This document shows, piece after piece, positions 18,914 through 23,040 of a stretch of 64,000 nt of DNA. Every line of letters begins with the position of its first letter. Position 1 is the first letter of the stretch. A model generated the notes under the pieces. It did not search any database. It saw nothing but the letters and a program-made list of their open reading frames with translations, and had not been told where the DNA came from. A program made the position numbers and the translations under genes. Origin of the DNA: Hyphomicrobiales bacterium (GTDB lineage: Bacteria; Pseudomonadota; Alphaproteobacteria; Rhizobiales; Beijerinckiaceae); the NCBI GenBank assembly GCA_027484655.1, contig JAIXSM010000029.1:1-64000 (forward strand), read 5' to 3'.

Positions 18914-19318
18914 CTAGGCGAGGGGCGGGCTCAGATACTGCTCGTCCGTGACGTGCTCGGCCCAATCCACGTGCTTGCCATCCTTGGCTTCCTGCATGGC
19001 GATGTGGACCATGCCCACGGTTGGCGAGGCGCCATGCCAGTGGCGCTCATTGGGCTCAAAAAACACCACGTCGCCCGGGCGCACCACCTGCACGGGACCG
19101 CCCTCGCGCTGGACGAGGCCGAGCCCGTCAGTGATGTAGATCGTCTGCCCCAGCGGGTGCGTGTGCCACGCGGTGCGCGCGCCCGGCTCGAACGACACGC
19201 GCAGGGCGCGCAGGTTCGCAGGCGCCGGCGCCTCGACAATCGGATCCTGCCAGACGGTCCCGGTGAAATACTGAGATGCGGCGCGCAAGCTGGGCCGGCC
19301 GGAGCGGTGGATGATCAT
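18914..19318 (-). CDS. Small cupin-domain protein
   Basis: 134 residues from the ATG at 19318; an in-frame upstream start at 19357 would add 13 residues lacking similarity to the usual N-terminus. The single cupin barrel has motif 1 FEPGARTAWHTHPLGQT with the metal-binding HTH and motif 2 RPGDVVFFEPNERHWHG. The order WFTG/YFTGTV near the N-terminus and DEQY at the C-terminus is typical of small cupins often annotated as carboxymuconolactone-decarboxylase-associated or quercetinase-like. It is cytosolic; substrate unknown. It is divergent from the TcmP module. Confidence 0.88.
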   Translation of the reverse strand: MIIHRSGRPSLRAASQYFTGTVWQDPIVEAPAPANLRALRVSFEPGARTAWHTHPLGQTIYITDGLGLVQREGGPVQVVRPGDVVFFEPNERHWHGASPTVGMVHIAMQEAKDGKHVDWAEHVTDEQYLSPPLA

Positions 19319-19394
19319 TTCAACACTCGATGTTCGAGACGCGAGTCCCTCTCGCAATCAATCTGTGCCCACTTCTTGCGCCGTTTGCAAACAT

Positions 19395-19409
19395 GTTCTA
19401 CGTATGTTC
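19395..19409. promoter_or_regulatory. Putative LexA (SOS) operator upstream of tcmP
   Basis: The sequence is GTTC, seven bases (TACGTAT), GTTC: an exact match to the direct-repeat SOS box described for alphaproteobacterial LexA (GTTC-N7-GTTC). It lies 29 bp before the tcmP start, where a bound repressor would block transcription, and next to a TTTGCAAA palindrome at 19384-19391. Eight fixed bases could occur by chance in a gap of this size only rarely. LexA is not encoded in the window, so binding is inferred. Confidence 0.6.
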
Positions 19410-19438
19410 TGTTTTTCATACAGTTTAAGAGGGTGGAC

Positions 19439-20335
19439 ATGGCCCTGCAGTCCTTTGGCAGCGTCGATACAAACTTCAAGCTGGATAAGATCGCAGAGTA
19501 TCTGGAGAAATACACTACGGTGCTCAAGGATAAGCCATCTAAAGAAAAGCCTTTTAGAACGATCTTTGTCGATGCATTTGCCGGCACTGGACATATCGAA
19601 CGCAGAAGGGATGCCGAATCACTTTTCGATGGAGATGCCGACTCAATCATCGAAGGGTCCGCAACGCGGGCGCTCAGGCTAAACAATCCTTTCAGCCAGT
19701 ATGTATTCGTCGAGATGAACGCGCAGAAAGCGAGGGCTCTTGAGAAGCTCAAGAGCGATTTTCCGATTCTGGCGCAGCGAATCTCAATTCAGGTTGAGGA
19801 CGCTAACGATGCTGTTCAACGCTTATGCAACGAGACAAATTGGAAAACCACGAGGGCTGTGATTTTTCTCGACCCATTCGGCAACCAGGTAAGCTGGCAA
19901 ACTCTCGAAGCAATTGCCCAAACTCAAAGCATAGACCTCTGGTATCTATTCCCTTCGGGCTTGGGAGTGTGGCGACAGATCAGCAAAGATGGCCGCGTTG
20001 TTAAGGAAGCCAACGAATCGCTGGACCGGATGTTTGGGCGAACAGATTGGCGAGACAGCTTGATAACCCGTTCATATGAAGTTGACCTCTTAGGAGAGCA
20101 TGAGGTCTTTACAAAGGAAGGCGACCCAAACGCCGTCACAGAATACATGATCTCGCTGATGAAAGGGATTTTCAAAGGTGGGGTTTTAGATCAATGGCTA
20201 GTCCTCGGATCGCACCGAGTACACAAGTACTCGTTGATATTTGCCTGCTCTAATCCCAATCCCCGGGCGAATCAATTGGCGTTTCGCTTAGCCAAAGCGA
20301 TCTTGAGGAGTGATAAGGTTGGCCGGCGAAAGTGA
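19439..20335 (+). CDS. tcmP: Three-Cys-motif partner protein TcmP, methyltransferase-like
   Basis: 298 residues from the ATG at 19439 with AGAGGGTGG just upstream. Features recall a class I Rossmann methyltransferase: IFVDAFAGTGHI (motif I-like, about residues 42-53) and VIFLDPFGNQVSW (motif IV-like, about 141-153). This is the pattern of the TcmP family, which is found beside Cys-cluster proteins of the DUF5131/Gp37-Gp68 type, exactly as here. Its 3' end overlaps the partner gene by 17 bases. Base composition is clearly richer in A and T than the flanking genes, suggesting acquisition. The target of any modification is unknown, and catalysis is not demonstrated by sequence alone. Confidence 0.88.
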   Translation: MALQSFGSVDTNFKLDKIAEYLEKYTTVLKDKPSKEKPFRTIFVDAFAGTGHIERRRDAESLFDGDADSIIEGSATRALRLNNPFSQYVFVEMNAQKARALEKLKSDFPILAQRISIQVEDANDAVQRLCNETNWKTTRAVIFLDPFGNQVSWQTLEAIAQTQSIDLWYLFPSGLGVWRQISKDGRVVKEANESLDRMFGRTDWRDSLITRSYEVDLLGEHEVFTKEGDPNAVTEYMISLMKGIFKGGVLDQWLVLGSHRVHKYSLIFACSNPNPRANQLAFRLAKAILRSDKVGRRK

Positions 20336-21086
20336 CATCGAATGGACCGATGCGACCTGGAACCCGGTTTCAGGATGCCGCATCCTCTCAGCTGGCTGCA
20401 CGAACTGCTATGCGATGCGCATGGCCGCTCGCCTGCAAGCGATGGATCATCCGAGTTATCGAGGCGTCGTTCGCAGATCGGGAGGCCGTCCCAAATGGAC
20501 GGGGCGCATTCATCTGAATGACGGCGTCCTTTCCGCTCCGATGAAGTGGCGAAAACCGAGACGTATCTTCGTGAACTCGATGTCCGACCTGTTCCAGGAC
20601 GGCGTCGCCCGCGATTTCATCGCGCGGGTCTGGAGCACAATGGAGCAGTGCCCACAGCACACATTCCAGATACTCACGAAGCGACCAGGAAACATGCGAG
20701 CGCTGCTCGCTGACAGGGCTTTCAAAGTTCTGCCTAATGTCTGGCTCGGAACATCGGTAGAAGACGCCGAGGCGGCCCGCCGTATCGCGCATTTGCGCGA
20801 AACGCCTGCGGCTGTCCGGTTTATTTCATTCGAACCGCTCGTGGCCGACGTTGGTCGGATAAACCTCCATGACATCCATTGGGCAATCGTCGGCGGCGAG
20901 TCGGGCCCCGGGGCCAGGCTGATGAAAGAGGAGTGGGTCGATAACATCAGGGCGCAATGTCGCACGCAGGACGTAGCGTTCTTCTTCAAGCAGTGGGGCG
21001 GCACGAATAAGAAACGAGCCGGGAGGCTCTACAAGGGTCAAACGTGGGACGAATATCCCGACGTGCGCATTCAAACTCCCGCCTGA
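20319..21086 (+). CDS. DUF5131 / phage Gp37-Gp68-family Cys-cluster protein
   Basis: 255 residues from the TTG at 20319, chosen because GAGGAG lies 8 nt upstream and because the product then begins MAGESDIEWTDATWNP, the normal start of the family; a GTG at 20310 is possible. Residues 20, 27 and 30 form the C-x6-C-x2-C cluster (SGCRILSAGCTNCYA). Later conserved stretches are RIFVNSMSDLF, FQILTKRP, ISFEPLV, VGGESGPGAR and FFFKQWGG. The family is thought to be related to radical SAM / spore-photoproduct-lyase-like enzymes, though the Cys spacing is not the canonical C-x3-C-x2-C. It overlaps tcmP and is probably expressed with it. Confidence 0.9.
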   Translation: MAGESDIEWTDATWNPVSGCRILSAGCTNCYAMRMAARLQAMDHPSYRGVVRRSGGRPKWTGRIHLNDGVLSAPMKWRKPRRIFVNSMSDLFQDGVARDFIARVWSTMEQCPQHTFQILTKRPGNMRALLADRAFKVLPNVWLGTSVEDAEAARRIAHLRETPAAVRFISFEPLVADVGRINLHDIHWAIVGGESGPGARLMKEEWVDNIRAQCRTQDVAFFFKQWGGTNKKRAGRLYKGQTWDEYPDVRIQTPA

Positions 21087-21234
21087 GTAGGCGGAAGGTC
21101 TTCCGGAAATACGGAGTCCTCGAACAAACTGATGATCTCCGCATCCGACAGGTCGAAATCATCGGAAATGAAGGTGATGGCAAGCGCCTCGGCGGACTCC
21201 CACTTTGTCGGTTCCTGAAGCGGCGTCTCTACCA

Positions 21235-21235
<1 letters not shown>
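21071..21235 (-). CDS. Unrecognised 54-residue acidic protein coupled to lepA
   Basis: The ATG at 21235 shares one base with the lepA stop (TGATG), the classic sign of translational coupling. The frame encodes 54 residues ending in TGA at 21071, and overlaps the 3' end of the convergent DUF5131 gene by 16 bases. The product is acidic, with segments KWESAEALAITF and FDLSDAEIISLFEDS, and no Cys, signal peptide or membrane helix. I recognise no family. It accounts for what otherwise would be a gap after lepA. Being short, it could be chance, but the exact coupling, the amphipathic composition and full occupation of the gap favour a gene. Confidence 0.5.

Positions 21236-23040
<1,805 letters not shown>

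Follow-up and report, generated by a model that had tools for sequence, protein, structure and literature searches.

A tcmP–DUF5131 gene pair behind a LexA-type box in Alphaproteobacteria: a candidate SOS-controlled operon of a putative radical SAM enzyme and a putative methyltransferase

Regulation by the SOS response has been reported elsewhere for SplB-like radical S-adenosylmethionine (SAM) proteins, and a two-gene uracil-DNA glycosylase (UDG) operon has been placed in an SOS network (PMC8565304, PMC3765255). The LexA-regulon table of Streptomyces venezuelae includes the radical SAM protein vnz_31145 (table entry in PMC9380542), and for Caulobacter the LexA consensus GTTC-N7-GTTC is in print (passages of PMC9578287 and PMC12700426). 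Here, we describe a two-gene unit that consists of tcmP and an overlapping gene of the DUF5131 (phage Gp37/Gp68) family and that is preceded by this very pattern. It lies in a stretch of 64,000 nucleotides, called the window in what follows, of contig JAIXSM010000029.1 from a Hyphomicrobiales bacterium (assembly GCA_027484655.1). We rate the pair as a probable SOS-controlled operon of two enzymes whose families have, as far as we found, no known function. Besides the SplB-like and UDG-linked systems, the closest described ones are spore photoproduct lyase (SPL), the methyltransferases RlmJ and Trm1, viperin, and the PADLOC candidates PDC-M41 and PDC-M30.

The original observation, made from the bare letters of the window, was an exact alphaproteobacterial LexA box 29 nt before the first ATG, and it was confirmed: GTTCTACGTATGTTC (Table 1) ends 29 nt before the tcmP start codon at 19439 and is the sole exact GTTC-N7-GTTC copy in the window. 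As a pattern alone it was dropped as evidence, since shuffled windows hold 1.56 copies on average, so that a single one is not above chance, and since the whole genome has 99 such sites as compared with 83 for the reversed control pattern. What gives the box its weight is that relatives have kept it and that, in this genome, recA, uvrA/ssb, lexA and further genes of SOS type are preceded by the same pattern. Twenty of the 99 genomic sites, picked for AT-rich spacers, were inspected. Eight of them precede SOS-type genes, namely recA, the divergent uvrA/ssb promoter, an ImuA-like and an SbcD-like gene, a UDG-linked and a PA0069-type radical SAM gene, a YifB-type gene and one that was judged by eye to be a possible rmuC but had no NCBIfam match; near the remaining 12 none was recognised. 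The lexA gene of this genome, located by its family, also has GTTC-N7-GTTC upstream. The NCBIfam cut-off was passed by recA, ssb, lexA and the UDG-linked radical SAM gene; the remaining SOS-type genes scored below it, being weak or truncated in the sequence read around the site (e.g., ImuA 36.7 at a cut-off of 150 and SbcD 51.3 at 77.65).

TcmP is present in 23 of 397 genomes of the order and in 9 of 385 genomes of the class, the genome under study included. With one further genome of the class and further genome contigs these yielded 43 distinct alphaproteobacterial loci (numbered with L below), in 21 of which tcmP is followed by DUF5131 on one strand. The exact box stands before tcmP in 17 of these 21, i.e. 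in the window, L024, L046–L051, L054, L056–L059, L061, L071, L125 and L154. By eye the upstream DNA of the boxed loci cannot be aligned outside the box, and in a profile of 16 of them the flanking positions carry a mean of 0.20 bits and two spacer positions 1.66 bits; these loci were selected for the presence of the box, and the 2.0 bits of its core are there by construction. Irrespective of gene order, 16 of the 25 rows from Alphaproteobacteria, or 15 of 24 once L146 is dropped as a repeat of L054, have a box within 100 nt of tcmP (L154 is not included); the remaining sequence of these loci has a background of 0.0026 exact patterns per 100 nt.

With DUF5131 as the leading gene, the box precedes DUF5131 in four of seven loci (L036, L040, L150, L152). 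Among convergent pairs, L052 has an exact box of its own before each gene and L031 a reverse-oriented one before DUF5131. Judged by the tcmP promoter alone, no locus of the order with DUF5131 first or with convergent genes has an exact box; inclusion of the DUF5131 side alters the picture for the former but not for most of the latter. Three loci with no DUF5131 motif beside tcmP (L038, L044, L153) were left out of all three gene-order counts. A second sample was centred on DUF5131, which occurs in 54 of the 385 genomes of the class, and comprised 29 loci besides the window from the best 30 loci. In ten of these loci an exact box lies no more than 130 nt upstream of DUF5131 (8 forward, 2 reverse); two of the ten are repeats (L196 of L152, L210 of L150), and in all eight others a longer TcmP-like gene was seen by eye downstream. 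In L024 tcmP is broken by a stop after 157 codons, with box and DUF5131 present.

Outside the Alphaproteobacteria a different box takes the same place. CTGT-N8-ACAG stands before tcmP in 4 of 18 loci from beta-, gamma- and unclassified proteobacteria (19 rows with L090, which is the alphaproteobacterial L147), and the 205,698 background bases of these loci contain no copy of it. Neither box type was found in the group of the other. The pattern resembles the boxes before lexA in such hosts, which read CTGTATATAATTACAG in L111 and CTGGATATAATTCCAG in L110; in L114 only a half-site is readable, and in the genome of the fourth host, L095, lexA was not found. A tree of TcmP places 16 boxed rows from Alphaproteobacteria in one clade of 18 with a support of 99 (Shimodaira–Hasegawa-like approximate likelihood ratio test, SH-aLRT), and the three aligned rows with a CTGT box are located in a distant, mostly betaproteobacterial clade. 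The simplest, though not the only, reading is that the pair was recruited to the LexA regulon independently in the alpha- and the beta-type clades. The sister loci L099, L102, L106 and L117 have no CTGT-N8-ACAG before tcmP. The GAACGATCGTTC-type palindromes that precede tcmP in the first three of them were considered as LexA boxes and rejected, as the lexA genes of these hosts have CTGT-type boxes; the palindrome, which appears in L106 as the variant GAACGAACGTTC, may belong to another regulator. In two acidobacterial hosts (L138, L139) the direct repeat ATTCGCTTTTTATTCGCTA is common to both lexA upstream regions and represents a candidate acidobacterial LexA box; it was not seen by eye before their tcmP genes. 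Six loci from Chloroflexota and Cyanobacteria (L062, L063, L066, L069, L074, L089) contain TcmP with no DUF5131 cysteine motif within 2.5 kb in a pattern search.

Because the box is conserved, stands before whichever gene is first and becomes CTGT-type in the beta-type loci, control of the pair by LexA is well supported, and we regard it, from comparison of the promoters, as very probable. As to membership of the LexA/SOS regulon, the promoter has a lineage-appropriate box, and this box is conserved beyond chance before orthologous operons. The earlier proposal that the module is induced by DNA damage through a LexA box is thereby supported by comparison for the control by LexA (17 of 21 loci) but not for all gene orders. 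The lack of a conserved GTTC-N7-GTTC before orthologous pairs, which had been named as the finding to be expected if it were wrong, was looked for, and the box proved to be kept in those 17 loci, in DUF5131-first loci and, as the CTGT type, in four beta-type loci.

Several observations have to be counted on the other side. An exact box is missing from four of the 21 tcmP-first loci (L039, L053, L148 and, with one mismatch, L055), from three of the seven DUF5131-first loci (L037, L151 and, with one mismatch, L043) and from 10 of the 12 distinct alphaproteobacterial pairs in convergent order. Neither of the two patterns tested occurs in 43 further loci, which belong to neither the alpha nor the beta/gamma group (among them L094, titled only Proteobacteria). 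Moreover, by its spacer the window box comes only 25th among the 99 genomic sites on a small and biased matrix; eight of the nine boxes of this genome that went into the matrix are from the 20 picked for AT-rich spacers, and it was given no weight. As far as the promoters tell, not every member of the family is under SOS control, and the chemistry does not need it, because convergent, some tcmP-first and DUF5131-first and the 43 other loci do without a box. One could go further and suppose that the boxes are not LexA sites at all, or that LexA merely regulates, as incidental cargo, a mobile pair of unrelated function. The commonness of the pattern with its 99 sites and the patchy occurrence and lower GC of the pair would fit this, but the box is conserved amid flanks that cannot be aligned, it moves with the first gene and it shifts to CTGT-N8-ACAG in beta-type loci, so that we consider such an explanation very improbable.

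Concerning the two proteins, the earlier description as tcmP with an overlapping gene of the Gp37/Gp68 family is borne out. TcmP matches TIGR04474 of NCBIfam with 153.1 bits (cut-off 53) and DUF5131 matches PF07505 with 321.4 bits (gathering cut-off 28.9) over positions 1–243 of 243. The structural model of DUF5131 predicts a radical SAM fold with SPL as nearest relative and with a three-cysteine cluster motif near the first strand, and the top six rows of the model comparison are this DNA repair enzyme. The motif, CX6CX2C, is present in all 29 loci (29 of 29) that were picked up with the Pfam model; in a 64-row alignment its invariance is built in, since the rows were chosen by it. A canonical CX3CX2C is absent, PF04055 is not matched and PF07505 is the only match at E values up to 1. 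Profile comparison by HHalign with two PA0069-like radical SAM proteins gives 69.6% at an E value of 4.2e-5 with the cysteine motifs aligned, and TIGR04471 (radical SAM mobile pair protein A) is matched with 77.6 bits at a cut-off of 355, i.e. DUF5131 is outside that family.

DUF5131 has CX6CX2C in place of CX3CX2C and a methyltransferase as partner, which sets it apart from SPL and from SplB-like radical SAM proteins (COG1533; PA0069/Rv2578c families). Close kinship with SPL is further called into question by the weak Foldseek E-values, with a decarboxylase as best row (0.032) and SPL second (0.043), by the lack of a match to PF20903, the SPL family, and by only 2.4% in HHalign against five proteins found with PF20903. 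The UDG-linked radical SAM system (TIGR03916, rSAM_link_UDG) resembles the pair in having GTTC-N7-GTTC just upstream in the same genome and differs in its radical SAM family. Its partner is, to go by the family name, presumably a uracil-DNA glycosylase-type protein, whereas that of DUF5131 is a methyltransferase, and we take the UDG-linked protein of this genome to be the counterpart of the published two-gene UDG operon. The PA0069-type (L009) and the UDG-linked gene (L008) are two further radical SAM genes of this genome with the box just upstream. Because the SplB-like and UDG-linked genes are boxed here, DUF5131 would bring the number of radical SAM families in a single regulon to three.

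TcmP shows the motifs DAFAGTG, LDPFG and DLWYLFP, and its model predicts a Rossmann methyltransferase fold with a SAM motif, similar to RlmJ (23S rRNA A2030 methyltransferase) and Trm1 (tRNA methyltransferase). Identity to these enzymes is 11–14% and the score against the Pfam family TRM (PF02005) is 13 bits at a cut-off of 27, which places TcmP outside that family. From such folds it could be argued that an RlmJ/Trm1-like methyltransferase and a radical SAM enzyme of the RlmN/MiaB/TYW1 kind together repair or re-modify tRNA or rRNA that was damaged or cleaved in genotoxic stress. A substrate cannot be deduced from likeness in fold; the first six structural rows of DUF5131 are a DNA repair enzyme and control by LexA points to DNA, and we judge a role in RNA modification to be improbable.

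The explanation that we favour can be outlined as follows. In the undamaged cell LexA, bound to the GTTC-N7-GTTC box of the promoter, would keep the tcmP–DUF5131 operon repressed. Upon DNA damage RecA would be activated and LexA cleaved, and both proteins would be made together. DUF5131, which by fold and weakly by sequence seems to be kin to SplB-like nucleic-acid repair enzymes, would bind a [4Fe-4S] cluster on CX6CX2C and generate a 5'-deoxyadenosyl radical that attacks a damaged or modified base, and TcmP, as a putative methyltransferase of the RlmJ/Trm1 kind, might prepare, mark or complete the reaction on the same nucleic acid. That the job of the pair is repair or modification of damaged DNA has in our estimate an about even chance. 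The more specific proposal, put forward tentatively and at somewhat less than even chance, is that radical SAM repair under SOS control has a third class, so far undescribed. Here a lesion in DNA (or RNA) would be reversed or marked jointly by a radical SAM enzyme and a methyltransferase dedicated to it; the pathway would have been recruited independently to the LexA regulon in alpha- and betaproteobacteria, and plasmids and phages would carry it as a portable repair kit. The original suggestion of an action on damaged or foreign nucleic acid is supported indirectly, by the SPL-like radical SAM fold, by the RNA-methyltransferase-like fold of TcmP and by the company within the regulon.

A different role has to be weighed at this point, since PADLOC counts the pair as the candidate defence system PDC-M41. 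Tested against the protein models alone, outside the system rules of PADLOC, it scores 290.8 and 334.3 bits with PDC-M41A and PDC-M41B and passes both. The pair might be an anti-phage or anti-plasmid system (PDC-M41/M30) for which the SOS response serves as an alarm of infection or DNA entry, with DUF5131 as a viperin-like maker of a modified nucleotide or with the pair as a modifier of foreign nucleic acid; the chemistry shared with viperin is proposed under this explanation only. Likeness to PDC-M41 (and PDC-M30) consists in the strong match of both components, and the defence role is itself a candidate one there, such systems being described, in the passage of PMC12988326 concerned, as unvalidated. 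The genomic surroundings also offer some points in its favour and against repair: among four annotated plasmid pairs one adjoins restriction-modification (RM) genes and one AbiE genes, and on pSymA TcmP comes after a gene taken to be hna. But the other two plasmid pairs have no evident defence gene as neighbour (near one of them there is a GIY-YIG nuclease gene), and neither the four pairs nor the pSymA stretch is boxed. The 108 neighbouring open reading frames (ORFs) around 19 boxed loci belong to 110 Pfam families, of which the 25 commonest are mostly metabolic, and the 25 shown of 208 PADLOC families comprise type I RM, MADS-type and PsyrA matches. These scans are coarse, as the ORF calls were crude (for the boxed loci 108 of 154 were kept after removal by hand of the module genes and overlapping ORFs, for 22 box-less loci 108 of 114) and the 25 commonest families were considered. 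Because matches are scattered in much the same way around the box-less loci, where they include Dnd, Pbe and type III RM, this is a weak test of defence. DUF5131 was found in 405 of 72,556 plasmid records and in 157 of 50,697 phage records, the latter being odd for an anti-phage effector. Taken together, repair is favoured over defence, its main rival, which we regard as rather unlikely. The pSymA stretch of S. meliloti (L183, a record with no gene annotation) contains near its TcmP gene a second pair of DUF5131 and a TcmP-like gene, and no GTTC-N7-GTTC was present within 8.6 kb.

Among the matches listed in a literature search that left out most subscription journals, no link of TcmP/DUF5131 (Gp37/Gp68, COG4422, three-Cys-motif) to LexA or SOS appeared, which is not proof of novelty, and PDC-M41 was not mentioned by name in the same literature. 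TcmP is touched in passing in passages of PMC12445080 and PMC12429752, and the term “three-Cys-motif” occurs in PMC7387457. The tie of the widespread DUF5131/TcmP families to LexA by lineage-specific boxes suggests DNA damage as the physiological signal, leaves a short list of chemistries and makes the function directly testable. If the repair explanation is true, a radical SAM and methyltransferase pair joins the SOS repair repertoire; if defence is, the SOS response would be what arms this defence system.

Table 1. Position of the box, the gene pair and its neighbours in the window.
Feature	Position	Strand	Remarks
Cupin gene (ORF)	18914–19357	-	opposite strand to tcmP; Cupin_2, 48.1 bits
LexA-type box GTTC-N7-GTTC, GTTCTACGTATGTTC	19395–19409	+	exact match; predicted SOS operator
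tcmP	19439–20335	+	298 aa; ATG 19439; predicted SAM-dependent methyltransferase, RlmJ/Trm1-like fold
DUF5131 (phage Gp37/Gp68) gene	20319–21086	+	255 aa; predicted radical SAM enzyme, CX6CX2C
lepA	21235–23040	-	bounds the tcmP–DUF5131 pair on the far side from the cupin gene

The lower GC that was originally noted for the pair was confirmed, with 0.49 for tcmP and 0.59 for DUF5131 as compared with 0.65 for the window. For DUF5131 the TTG at 20319, which produces an overlap of 17 nt with tcmP, is the likely start and is preferred to the alternative GTG at 20310 because its relatives mostly begin with M-A-x-x-S-x-I-E-W-T. The supposed insertion between the cupin gene and lepA holds with respect to position and opposite strands; insertion itself is not demonstrated, as the 1.5-kb flanks of lepA in 19 relatives contain neither a cupin nor a TctC gene and a clean empty site was found in none of them. 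On the minus strand a frame of 54 codons (21071–21235), for which the lepA flanks of the 19 relatives gave no match, extends from the lepA stop in antiparallel direction into the final 16 nt of the DUF5131 gene.
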